Below, piece after piece: positions 7,301-10,904 of a DNA stretch of 64,000 bases. The notes under the pieces were generated by a model, which ran no database searches, had not been told where the DNA came from, and saw only the letters and a list, made by a program, of their open reading frames with translations. This DNA is from Synechococcus sp. RSCCF101 (GTDB taxonomy: Bacteria; Cyanobacteriota; Cyanobacteriia; PCC-6307; Cyanobiaceae), in the NCBI RefSeq assembly GCF_008807075.1, contig NZ_CP035632.1:1612001-1676000 (forward strand), written 5' to 3'. The position numbers were made by a program, and so were the translations under genes. Within the stretch, counting starts at the first letter, position 1. Each line of letters begins with the position of its first letter.

Positions 7301-7336
7301 AGGGCGGTTTAAGATCGTGCGCCCTTATTGCAATCC

Positions 7337-7831
7337 ATGAAGCAGACACTCAGCTGCCTGCATCCCCACCCGGGATGGAGCGTGGATGATCCGAGCCCCG
7401 AGTCCGGGCCCCCTCTCTCCAGCCCCACCGGCGCGTTGGTGGGCAAACACTGCATCCTCGAGCTCTACGACTGTTCATCGGTCCGGCTCAACGACGAATC
7501 CTTCATCGCCGGCAGCCTGACCCGGGCGGCCAGCGAGGCCGGAGCCACCCTGCTCCGGCTCGTCACGCATCGGTTCGAACCCCAGGGGGTGACCGGCCTG
7601 GCGCTGCTGGCCGAATCCCACGTCTCGATTCACACCTGGCCCGAGTCGGGTTACGCCGCCGTGGACGTGTTCACCTGCGGTGACCACACCATGCCGGAGC
7701 TGGCCTGCGCCCACCTGCGCGAGGCGCTGCTGGCCGGCCGCTACTCCCTGCGCAGTTTCCTCAGGGAGGCACCCGCCGCGGTCGCCGGCAGCGAACGGGC
7801 TCCTCTGGCCCCGCAGCTGCAGGCCGCCTGA
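7337..7831 (+). CDS. speD: S-adenosylmethionine decarboxylase proenzyme
   Basis: Supplies decarboxylated SAM as the aminopropyl donor for spermidine. The 164-residue proenzyme has [37 protein letters not shown] and [11 protein letters not shown]. The serine of AESHVS is the expected self-cleavage site that becomes the pyruvoyl cofactor, and the Cys of TCG is the conserved active-site cysteine. ATG at 7337 is preferred over an in-frame TTG nine bases upstream. The N-terminal 34 residues before GKH are a Pro/Ser-rich extension. It converges with larE, with six bases between the stops. Confidence 0.92.
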
Positions 7832-7836
7832 GGACC

Positions 7837-8727
7837 TCAGGAGCCGCCGCTGCCCGGGGGCCCGGGCAGCGAGCGATTCAGCTTGCCGCTCACCAGCCCC
7901 TCGAGATCCAGGCTCACAGCCGTGAACCCGAGGCCGCGCAGAGCGGTCACCAGCTCCGCTCGCTCACGGCTGTCGGACCACAGCTCCAGGGCCCGGGCCA
8001 GTTCCCCGGGCGAGAGCTCGATCCGGGCGGTGTCCCCCTGAGAGCGCACGCGCAGCCGGCGGAAGCCACGCTCCTCCAGCAGCGCTTCCGCGCGCCCCAC
8101 CCGGTCCAGGCCATCCGGGCTGATCGGCTCGCCGTAGGGAAAACGGGACGCGAGACAGGGCTGGGCGGGCTTGTCCCACCAGGGGAAGCCCAGGGCGCGC
8201 GAGATGGCGCGCACCGAGGCCTTGCGGATCGTCAGTTCCGCCAGAGGCGATCTCACGCCATGCTCGCGCGCGGCGGCGATCCCTGGGCGATGCTCCCCGA
8301 GGTCGTCGGCATTGACGCCATCCACCACCTGCGCTCCGGGGCCGGCCTGCCCGGCGATGGCGGCGAGAACCCGGTGCAGCTCGCTCTTGCAGGCATAACA
8401 GCGGTGGGAGGGATTGCTGCTGTAGGCCGGATCACGCCACTCCTGGGTGCCCACCTCCCGGTGGCGGATGCCGAGCCAGCCCGCCTGCTGGCCCGCCTGC
8501 CGGCGGAGTCCCTCCGCGAGAGCCGGCGACACACCCGTAACAGCCAGGGCCCGCTCCCCCAGCTGCTCGGCGGCGATGGCGGCCACCAGGGTGCTGTCGA
8601 CCCCACCGGAGTAGGCGATGCAGAGACGGTCGTGGCTCAGCATCCAGTCGCGCAGGGCCCGCAGCGACTCCAGGTCCGCCGCCTCGAGGTGCTCCACCAG
8701 GGGATGCCCGCCGCTGCGTCCCGTCAT
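7837..8727 (-). CDS. larE: LarE-family ATP-dependent sulfur transferase
   Basis: LarE adenylates a substrate with its PP-loop and transfers sulfur from a protein thiol; in lactobacilli it builds the nickel-pincer cofactor of lactate racemase. Seen here: PP-loop YSGGVDSTL near residue 40, and PCLASRFPYGEPIS, where the Cys aligns with the sacrificial cysteine of Lactobacillus plantarum LarE. An additional HRCYACKSEL pair has no counterpart in that protein and resembles the three-cysteine branch that may use an iron-sulfur cluster. No larA, larB or larC is nearby, so a role other than lactate racemase maturation is possible. Its ATG overlaps the moeB stop by four bases. Confidence 0.85.
   Translation of the reverse strand: MTGRSGGHPLVEHLEAADLESLRALRDWMLSHDRLCIAYSGGVDSTLVAAIAAEQLGERALAVTGVSPALAEGLRRQAGQQAGWLGIRHREVGTQEWRDPAYSSNPSHRCYACKSELHRVLAAIAGQAGPGAQVVDGVNADDLGEHRPGIAAAREHGVRSPLAELTIRKASVRAISRALGFPWWDKPAQPCLASRFPYGEPISPDGLDRVGRAEALLEERGFRRLRVRSQGDTARIELSPGELARALELWSDSRERAELVTALRGLGFTAVSLDLEGLVSGKLNRSLPGPPGSGGS
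7849..7870. terminator. GC-rich palindrome at the speD/larE convergence
   Basis: GCTGCCCGGG and CCCGGGCAGC form a perfect 10-bp stem around GG inside the last codons of larE, 18 bases after the speD stop. There is no U-tract on either strand, so intrinsic termination is uncertain. The position between converging genes makes a stop or mRNA-end-protecting role plausible. Confidence 0.35.
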
Positions 8728-9911
8728 GACCGGGCCCCGGGTGCGGCGGACTCCACCGGCCAGCCCCGCTGCAGCCAGGCATCCATCCCCCCGAGCACGT
8801 TGATGCCCTCGATCCCATGGCGGCGCAGCAGCCCCAGGGCCCTGGTGCTGCGTCCGCCGGCCTTGCAGACCACGTGGATCGTGCCGGCAGCGCTCATCCG
8901 CTTCAGCTGCGAGAGGCTGGCCTCCCGCTCCAGCTCGGCCAGAGGGATGTTGAGCGCACCGGGCAGCGAGGCCGCCGCCACCTCCTCGGCGCTGCGCACA
9001 TCGAGCAGCAGCATGGGGGCGGCTGGCGTGGCGCTCTCCAGTCGGCGCCGCAGGGTCTCCACATCGATGCCGGGGTGGCCGTCACCACCCTCCGGTGACG
9101 ACGCAGGCGTCCCGGCGCAGGGGCGGGCGTGGTCGATCAGCTCACGGATGGGCTCCCGGCCGGGCGTGGGCTGCAGACGCAGCTCACGGAACCGCATCGA
9201 GAGGGCATCGAGCACCAGCAGGCGGCCGCTGAGGCTGGTGCCGATGCCGGCGATGAGCTTGATGGCCTCGGTGGCCTGGATGGTTCCGATCAGGCCGGGC
9301 AGCACCCCGACCACGCCCGCCTCGGCGCAGGAGGGAACCGCACCGGCGGGAGGCGGCTCGGGAAGCAGGTCGCGGAAGTCGGGCCCGCCCCGGTGGTTGA
9401 AGACACTGGCCTGGCCCTCGAAACGGAAGACCGCGCCATAGACCCAGGCGAGCCCCAGCAGAGCGCAGGCGTCGTTGACCAGGTAGCGGGTGGAGAAGTT
9501 GTCGCTGCCGTCACAGACCAGGTCGTAGGAGGCCAGACGCTCGAGGGCATTGGCGCTGGAGAGCGCCTCCCTGTGCACCTGCACGTCGCAGCGGGGGTTG
9601 AGCTCGAGCATGCGGGCGCGGGCCGAGTGAACCTTGGCCTCACCGATGCGTGCGGTGCTGTGGATGACCTGGCGCTGCAGGTTGCTGGCATCGACCACGT
9701 CGAAGTCGATCAGACCGATCCGACCGATTCCCGCCGCCGCCAGGTAGAGCAGCAGGGGTGAGCCCAGCCCGCCGGCCCCCACACAGAGCACGGAGGCGGC
9801 CTTCAGGCGCCGCTGCCCCACCACCCCCAGCTCGGGCAGGCTCAGGTGGCGGGCGTAGCGCCCGGTCTCCTCTGCATCCAGTGCCGTGCTGCCGATCTCG
9901 GGGGGGAGCAT
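8724..9911 (-). CDS. moeB: MoeB/ThiF-type E1-like adenylyltransferase fused to a rhodanese domain
   Basis: Activates the C-terminal glycine of a ubiquitin-like sulfur carrier (MoaD or ThiS type) by adenylation; the fused rhodanese domain can hand sulfur on to it. Residues about 20-270 are the E1 domain: GAGGLGSPLLLYLAAAGIG, LIDFDVVDASNLQRQV, CDGSDNFSTRYLVNDAC. Residues about 285-390 are rhodanese with LLDVRSAEE and active-site loop VVCKAGGRS. The first CxxC zinc pair of classic MoeB is missing at HRGGPDFRDLLPEPPP. Whether it serves molybdopterin, thiamine or another carrier cannot be told; no moaD or thiS lies beside it. It follows the JAMM gene by 21 bases and overlaps larE. Confidence 0.88.
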   Translation of the reverse strand: MLPPEIGSTALDAEETGRYARHLSLPELGVVGQRRLKAASVLCVGAGGLGSPLLLYLAAAGIGRIGLIDFDVVDASNLQRQVIHSTARIGEAKVHSARARMLELNPRCDVQVHREALSSANALERLASYDLVCDGSDNFSTRYLVNDACALLGLAWVYGAVFRFEGQASVFNHRGGPDFRDLLPEPPPAGAVPSCAEAGVVGVLPGLIGTIQATEAIKLIAGIGTSLSGRLLVLDALSMRFRELRLQPTPGREPIRELIDHARPCAGTPASSPEGGDGHPGIDVETLRRRLESATPAAPMLLLDVRSAEEVAAASLPGALNIPLAELEREASLSQLKRMSAAGTIHVVCKAGGRSTRALGLLRRHGIEGINVLGGMDAWLQRGWPVESAAPGARS

Positions 9912-9932
9912 GCCGGTGGGCGTCCTGCAGGA

Positions 9933-10463
9933 TCAGGGTTCAGGACCGCAGACCACCATCCTGCTCAGCGGGGATCGGTGCCACAAGTGGATCGGCACCG
10001 GCCGGGGGGAGGGCGATGGCCCTTCCCCCGCGGCAGGCTCGAGCCACCAGGCCCGCAGTCCGTCCCGTGCCGGCTGCCCTCCGGCCCAGATGAGCACCAG
10101 CGCCGGATGCAGGGCCATGGCCCGGTCCAGCGGGGAGGAAACGGCCGGGCCGGCGGGGTGGGAGTGGGCATGGCCGACGAGCCTCAGCCCGCGGCCGCGG
10201 GCCCAGCGCTGGGCGAGTAGCTGCTCACGCGGGTCGACCAGAAAGTGACGCTGCCGCGCGGAGGGGGGCTGCTGCACGTTGCGGCAGGGCCAGAGCGCCT
10301 CCAGCAGCACCGCGTCCCGACCGGACGGGTCGACGGGCGATAGCAGCAGGCAGCACCCCTCCTCCGGGGAGGCCGCGGCCAGAAGGCGTCTGAGAATCCG
10401 CAAACACTCGAGCGGGAGGAGCACCGCCGCTGGCCAGCTCGGGGCGTCGGCGGTATGTTCCAT
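9933..10463 (-). CDS. JAMM (MPN+) metallopeptidase, M67 family
   Basis: A 176-residue zinc isopeptidase-like protein. The complete JAMM signature is visible: a glutamate in PEEGCC near residue 36 and VGHAHSHPAGPAVSSPLD near residue 95, giving HxH, seven residues, S, two residues, D. Bacterial JAMM proteins next to E1-like enzymes process ubiquitin-like sulfur carriers, for example Mec, which releases cysteine from CysO in mycobacteria. First gene of the minus-strand run JAMM-moeB-larE. Its start is 30 bases from the divergent CURT1-like start, so promoter elements must overlap coding DNA. The C-terminal 40 residues are Pro/Arg-rich and unassigned. Confidence 0.85.
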   Translation of the reverse strand: MEHTADAPSWPAAVLLPLECLRILRRLLAAASPEEGCCLLLSPVDPSGRDAVLLEALWPCRNVQQPPSARQRHFLVDPREQLLAQRWARGRGLRLVGHAHSHPAGPAVSSPLDRAMALHPALVLIWAGGQPARDGLRAWWLEPAAGEGPSPSPRPVPIHLWHRSPLSRMVVCGPEP

Positions 10464-10493
10464 TTGATTTCAAGTTGAGTCTTTCCCAGCGCG

Positions 10494-10904
10494 ATGAGCG
10501 AAACAGTGACAACGACCAGTGAAGCGGTCGACGCGCCGGAAGCGACCTTCACCTCCTCAGCCCCCAACGACGCCGCCACTCCGGCCGCCGAGAGCAGCGC
10601 CGGCTTCAGCGAGCGCTACGAGCAGGTGCTCGGGGCCATCAACAGCACCCTCAACCAGGTCGACTGGAGCCAGGCGGGGCTGATCGTGAAGGTGGCCGGC
10701 ATCTTCACCGCCGTCATCGTGGCTCAGATCCTGATCAAGGGGCTGCTCGACACGGTCAATCTGATCCCCATCGTCCCCGGACTTCTCGAACTGCTCGGTC
10801 TGGTGGTGGCCGGTCGCTGGGCGCTGGCCAATCTCACCACCAGCCAGAAGCGCGAGGCCCTCACCAGCCGGCTGCGCAGCTGGCAGCAGGAATACCTGGG
10901 CTGA
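10494..10904 (+). CDS. CAAD/CURT1-like thylakoid membrane protein
   Basis: A 136-residue protein with an acidic Ala/Thr/Glu-rich N-terminus (about residues 1-40), an amphipathic segment (SERYEQVLGAINSTLNQVDW), and two hydrophobic helices (KVAGIFTAVIVAQILIKGLL and IVPGLLELLGLVVAGRWAL) followed by a charged amphipathic C-terminal helix. That layout is the CAAD domain found in cyanobacterial CURT1 and appended to some aminoacyl-tRNA synthetases. CURT1 proteins bend thylakoid membranes at their margins. The standalone form suggests the CURT1 role rather than a synthetase anchor. Confidence 0.78.
   Translation: MSETVTTTSEAVDAPEATFTSSAPNDAATPAAESSAGFSERYEQVLGAINSTLNQVDWSQAGLIVKVAGIFTAVIVAQILIKGLLDTVNLIPIVPGLLELLGLVVAGRWALANLTTSQKREALTSRLRSWQQEYLG

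Follow-up and report, generated by a model that had tools for sequence, protein, structure and literature searches.

The terminal glycine of a sulfur carrier protein must be free for adenylation. To our knowledge, capped carriers served by a JAMM peptidase, of which HcyS with HcyD is one example, have been described in natural-product and methionine pathways but not in thiamine synthesis. Other capped carriers that require a protease are QbsE, with QbsD, and PtmS2 (cap MV), with PtmS1 (PMC6006322). These systems have in common a JAMM protein, an activator of the E1/MoeZ type and a ThiS/MoaD-fold carrier that extends past Gly-Gly by at least one residue. A JAMM protein and an E1-rhodanese also occur together in the CysO-Mec-CysM/MoeZ system of Mycobacterium, and orthologues of CysO are found in many cyanobacteria. 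Operons of a JAB gene and an E1-rhodanese gene were listed as uncharacterised by Iyer et al. in 2006 (row 4b of their Table 1; PMC1779556), with Anabaena, Nostoc, Gloeobacter, Prochlorococcus and Synechococcus among the hosts; the same paper states that no JAB gene occurs in the thiamine and Moco operons. Here we describe a locus with this gene pair from Synechococcus sp. RSCCF101 and propose a substrate and a job for a pair that has stood as uncharacterised in cyanobacteria since that survey.

Organization of the locus

The window (the whole stretch of 64,000 nucleotides that was analysed) belongs to a genome assembled as a single contig of 2.98 Mb, which its gene content and its relatives place as a Cyanobium/Synechococcus-like member of Cyanobiaceae. 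Its relevant features are listed in Table 1; the neighbours of the locus are CAAD, fructosamine kinase and speD genes. The arrangement given in the preliminary description, i.e. three minus-strand genes with a 21-base spacing (9912-9932, between JAMM and E1) and a four-base overlap, agrees with the coordinates obtained here, and its assignments of an intact JAMM peptidase, an E1 protein with a rhodanese and a LarE were all borne out.

Table 1. Features of the JAMM-E1-larE region (positions are those of the window)
Feature	Positions	Strand	Evidence and context
JAMM/Prok-JAB metallopeptidase, 176 aa	9933..10463	-	PF14464 59 bits, cut-off 25
E1-like adenylyltransferase with C-terminal rhodanese (MoeB-R/MoeZ-like), 395 aa	8724..9911	-	PF00899 246 bits, PF00581 42 bits
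LarE, ATP-dependent sulfur insertase, three-cysteine type, 296 aa	7837..8727	-	TIGR00268 269 bits, cut-off 150
E1 stop/LarE start overlap, 4 bases	8724..8727	-	lineage-specific; site of cobO (opposite strand) in relatives
CAAD-domain gene	10494..10904	+	PF14159; divergent from JAMM, 30 bases away; in conserved syntenic block
speD (S-adenosylmethionine decarboxylase)	7328..7831	+	TIGR03330; transcribed towards larE, delimiting the transcription unit

The catalytic motif of JAMM is complete (E35...H100-S-H102-x7-S110-x2-D113), and E35, H100, H102, S110 and D113 are invariant in an alignment of 43 relatives. An AlphaFold2 model computed from this alignment has a confident JAMM fold (pLDDT 87), and its top neighbours in the PDB are JAMM proteins, including 2kks and the PfJAMM1-SAMP2 complex 5lda (Pyrococcus JAMM1 with the ubiquitin-like SAMP2). 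The E1-rhodanese consists of a ThiF domain followed by a rhodanese domain with an active cysteine; both active-site motifs are present (PSC, in PSCAEAG, for the E1 domain and CKAGGRS for the rhodanese). This protein passes the shorter MoeB subfamily model NF004281 (285 bits versus 266) and stays below the cut-off of the equivalog model NF005646 (484 bits versus 633). CxxC zinc pairs are found neither in it nor, as a motif pair, in the cyanobacterial orthologues listed.

The JAMM and E1 genes are adjacent in 29 of 30 Cyanobiaceae JAMM loci, the remaining locus stopping at a contig end, and in 23 of 30 loci from other cyanobacterial families. Such pairing is far above chance. The gene pair is the one found in the operons of Iyer et al. 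(PMC1779556), whose description of them, in the relevant passages, is without a ThiS cap. The pair is already known, without an assigned role, and the leading candidate for its substrate is now a capped ThiS.

ThiS carries a C-terminal cap

That no carrier protein and no larABC are present, as had been noted at first, holds for the window only, since the genome encodes ThiS, MoaD and LarC. Its two carriers of the PF02597 family are MoaD, which ends in Gly-Gly and whose gene lies in a Moco cluster, and ThiS. The ThiS gene (G000:C1:1345912-1346103, minus strand; TIGR01683 72 bits) lies outside the window, behind a gene for a ThiD2-ThiE fusion and ∼276 kb from JAMM-E1; the two are not neighbours. 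Its product ends ...EVVTIVGGGS, i.e. one residue past the glycines, the TIGR01683 model ending one residue earlier. The preliminary description had suggested a search for MoaD/ThiS-like proteins that extend beyond Gly-Gly, and this ThiS is one. CysO was also considered as a carrier and was rejected, there being no match to it in this genome at E 0.001; the same is true of many relatives.

The ends of ThiS were read in >100 cyanobacterial genomes. In Cyanobiaceae a cap is the rule: it is mostly Ser, and also Ala, Thr, Cys, Asn, Phe, SYS or DSP, with longer tails in genus g98. Outside this family nearly all ThiS sequences end GGG. The situation differs from that of QbsE/QbsD, PtmS2/PtmS1 and HcyS/HcyD in that (i) the carrier is the ThiS of thiamine synthesis, (ii) the capped carrier is encoded apart from JAMM and (iii) the cap and a conserved DNA element overlap (see below).

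Distribution of the cap and of JAMM

The survey covered 171 Cyanobiaceae genomes with a completeness of at least 90%. JAMM is absent from 21 of them (one, G362, was identified by elimination), and in 17 of these 21 ThiS is uncapped, with an exact GGG end. These 17 comprise all 16 genomes of genus g2 and the draft G246; 16 of the calls were made by DNA pattern and one (G278) by reading. The g2 genomes, mostly finished assemblies of 1.6-1.7 Mb, presumably represent high-light Prochlorococcus. A capped ThiS without a JAMM match was found in four fragmented drafts (G193, G329, G351 and G359), where the absence of JAMM is likely due to draft incompleteness. Six genomes (G196, G203, G213, G218, G236 and G258) have a GGG ThiS together with JAMM, and CysO is present in all six.

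Inspection of the syntenic site between the CAAD and E1 genes indicated that JAMM is gone from G107 and from G189, both of which have a ThiS ending GGG; G233, from the same genus as G189, retains JAMM, and the loss in G189 is apparently separate from that in G107. A LarE tree covering 61 genomes gives two independent contrasts among those without CysO, both in the expected direction and none against it, a number too small for significance in a sign test. Outside Cyanobiaceae, the genomes with a capped ThiS (G027, G054, G121, G143, G147 and G157) have JAMM in 6 cases out of 6, and in 14 out of 14 genomes without an intact JAMM match ThiS ends GGG, although this contrast alone would not be significant. 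The joint loss of cap and JAMM is a correlation with two clear independent co-losses, consistent with, albeit not proof of, an action of JAMM on the cap.

In finished small genomes (G114, G165, G177, G202, G221, G225 and G232) ThiS is the sole PF02597 protein and there is a single JAMM, so that ThiS is, by elimination, the one recognisable partner of JAMM there. JAMM contains DPREQ in every genome checked that has a one-residue cap, whereas in the uncapped genomes that bear CysO it contains DPAEL or APAEL; this correlation tracks phylogeny.

A DNA element at the end of thiS

The bases at the end of thiS, GGT-TCC-TANAKT, which stand ahead of a DUF1517 gene, are conserved beyond coding needs. 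Of 77 capped genomes, 69 have TANANT, and 60 share a conserved A seven bases beyond it. A serine cap is mostly encoded by TCC, AT-rich genomes included. Selection on the amino acid itself was considered as the reason for the cap serine and appears doubtful, given the almost invariable TCC codon and the extension of conservation past the stop. Since the cap bases look constrained as DNA, conservation of the cap alone is no evidence of a protease site.

Judging from conservation and spacing, we read TANAKT as a likely -10 box, with its start point, for the DUF1517 gene that follows, overlapping the thiS stop codon. Searches at the thiS end gave no Rfam match, no tRNA and, by the E. coli rule (E. 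coli consensus), no sigma-70 promoter. In uncapped genomes of g112 and g119 similar elements stand farther downstream, by some tens of bases, and G246 has apparently lost the Ser codon before TAGATT by deletion. An overlap with a promoter would account for the origin and the lengthening of the cap, and for its being tolerated only in the presence of a JAMM able to remove it.

Alternatively, the cap might be a harmless by-product of this DNA element, or be trimmed by some other peptidase, the role of JAMM being unrelated in either case. The continuation of the cap bases into non-coding sequence past the stop, the small number of independent co-losses (only two) and the four capped drafts without a JAMM match all speak for this. 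It is nevertheless improbable in view of the co-loss seen in both informative cases, of the presence of JAMM in all capped genomes outside the family and of the small genomes in which a single JAMM faces ThiS as the only PF02597 carrier.

Proposed role of the JAMM-E1 pair

The reading that we prefer, and hold to be probable, is that JAMM and E1-rhodanese act in series on ThiS, the former uncapping it and the latter forming its thiocarboxylate, with LarE separate from both. ThiS is encoded with one serine beyond its Gly-Gly-Gly, and JAMM would hydrolyse the bond after the last glycine, which would free its carboxylate. The freed glycine would then be adenylated with ATP by the E1 domain and converted to a thiocarboxylate by the persulfide on the rhodanese cysteine, and thiazole synthase would use this thiocarboxylate to make thiamine. 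MoaD, already ending in Gly-Gly, is probably a further substrate of this E1. Among CysO-bearing relatives, JAMM may have a second function, that of Mec, in which it releases cysteine from CysO-cysteine. From the genomic evidence we infer that JAMM cleaves capped ThiS and that E1-rhodanese serves both ThiS and MoaD; in place of the 'unknown target' of the preliminary description, the simplest candidate is the thiazole of thiamine, via ThiS (together with Moco, via MoaD).

A broader proposal, on which we find the considerations evenly poised, extends uncapping to the family as a whole: the ThiS of Cyanobiaceae would be a capped precursor owing to the overlap of its stop codon with TANAKT, JAMM would uncap it, and lineages that lost the cap as well as CysO would have lost JAMM too. 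If uncapping by JAMM is correct, a trimming step like that of ubiquitin precursors would be obligatory for vitamin B1 in many of the main ocean phototrophs, and one genus with small genomes would have solved the problem of the cap by shifting the stop codon. JAMM mutants of a capped Synechococcus are predicted to need thiamine and to accumulate ThiS-Ser. Neither the uncapping of ThiS by a JAMM protein for thiamine nor ThiS caps in cyanobacteria were found in a literature search in which 'ThiS' is confounded with 'this' and whose scope excludes most subscription literature.

Alternatively, JAMM might release ThiS (or MoaD) that has been conjugated to proteins, in the manner of archaeal desampylases acting on SAMPs. 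Besides the fold match to PfJAMM1-SAMP2, there is a weak similarity to the desampylase model NF041370 (32 bits); however, its cut-off of 130 bits is not reached, no E2-like partner is seen at the locus, and the loss of JAMM accompanies loss of the cap, a link that deconjugation does not predict. We thus regard deconjugation as unlikely.

Release of cysteine from a CysO-like carrier, as in the CysO-Mec system, is very unlikely to be what JAMM does in this genome, which differs from Mycobacterium in its lack of CysO; JAMM is kept here and in many relatives that likewise lack CysO at the threshold given above, and a cysteine synthase is not at the locus. Cyanobacterial CysO is clearly related to that of M. 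tuberculosis (PDB 3dwg_C, E 7e-21), and genus g98 has a JAMM-E1-ThrC-CysO cluster, in which the PLP enzyme beside CysO is a threonine synthase homologue, unlike CysM; cysteine release may be the older role of JAMM. CysO alone does not demand JAMM: the draft G246 possesses CysO but gives no JAMM match, and the same holds for several genomes of other families.

LarE is not part of the unit

Only JAMM and E1-rhodanese form a unit. The sulfur-relay module of the preliminary description stands as far as these two are concerned, being a conserved pair of the thiocarboxylate-carrier type, whereas LarE is outside the unit and its adjacency is accidental. A cobO gene (PF02572) on the opposite strand lies between E1 and larE in all 16 inspected relatives that hold both genes (loci L218-L221, L224, L226, L284, L297, L303, L305-L308, L310, L326 and L396), so that a shared E1-larE transcript is hardly possible in them. 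The window has no cobO between the two genes, and it is because cobO is missing at this place that E1 and larE overlap. The proposed survey of the gene neighbourhood confirmed the JAMM-E1 part only: among the JAMM-E1 loci surveyed in other cyanobacterial families, none has larE within 1.5 kb. In addition, larE and E1 are retained in genomes that lost JAMM.

The LarE protein has the motifs SGGVDS, CYAC and PCLASR, and its CXXC-C cysteines are as in the type that binds [4Fe-4S] in T. maritima (PMC9283937). LarC is encoded ∼130 kb from the locus (G000:C1:1489591-1490736; PF01969 400 bits, with TIGR00299 and NF052512 above cut-off) and was found in every Cyanobiaceae member of the phylum sample. 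LarB, LarE and LarC of Synechocystis produce the nickel-pincer nucleotide (Nevarez et al.; PMC11796402), and lar genes are common across cyanobacteria, with LarA missing from most (PMC11796402). With LarC elsewhere in the genome and cyanobacterial LarB/C/E able to make this nucleotide, the lack of larABC in the window is no anomaly. The CXXC-C LarE and the presence of LarC are features shared with the known nickel-pincer synthesis; the position of larE beside JAMM-E1 sets this locus apart from it. LarE would thus act only in the classical Lar pathway, with LarC, for the nickel-pincer cofactor; its participation in the sulfur relay was rejected because relatives have cobO between E1 and larE and because this genome encodes LarC.

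That all three proteins form one sulfur-relay module thiolating an unknown target is extremely unlikely on this evidence, even though the spacing in the window is operon-like, the three families all deal with sulfur or carriers, and LarE lies at most a few kilobases from JAMM-E1 in most Cyanobiaceae. The link to LarE proposed at first is corrected accordingly. As a further detail of this side of the locus, speD is close to larE in most relatives.

CysO-like carriers and their gene neighbourhoods

The cluster of genus g98 is CysO/Mec-like, with a threonine synthase homologue (ThrC) in the position that CysM holds in the CysO-Mec-CysM system. At ten loci, mostly from Acidobacteria (L312, L315, L317, L318, L320-L323, L325 and L347), a single open frame has matches to both CysO and E1-rhodanese, which suggests a carrier-E1 fusion; JAMM often adjoins this frame. 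Other CysO-like carriers of Acidobacteria and Chloroflexi (L319, L328, L332, L339, L341 and L349) adjoin JAMM and/or E1 and appear to be capped (for example, IAGGCQPR, IAGGC and IAGGMR). In G193, E1-rhodanese has a second kind of neighbourhood: it is convergent with a diverged CysO-like carrier that ends in ITAVAGG, and a radical-SAM-like protein lies near the pair; no JAMM was seen in this draft genome.

Coordinates of the features discussed
Feature	Locus	Position	Orientation	Source
JAMM, E1-rhodanese, threonine synthase homologue, CysO	L223	4838-8371	all one direction	genus g98
E1-rhodanese and diverged CysO-like carrier	L225	3441-4869	convergent	G193
Element GGTTCCTANAKT over thiS stop codon (conserved bases)	L001	about 1480-1500	minus strand	

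The thiS end and the window locus

The conserved DNA element overlaps the thiS stop codon in L001 and its 76 equivalents, and a conserved A lies 7 bases beyond it; the two are likely the -10 box and start point for the DUF1517 gene. In the window, the cobO that relatives carry between E1 and larE is absent (8724-8727). The JAMM and CAAD genes start divergently only 30 bases apart (10464-10493) and their promoters must therefore overlap coding sequence.
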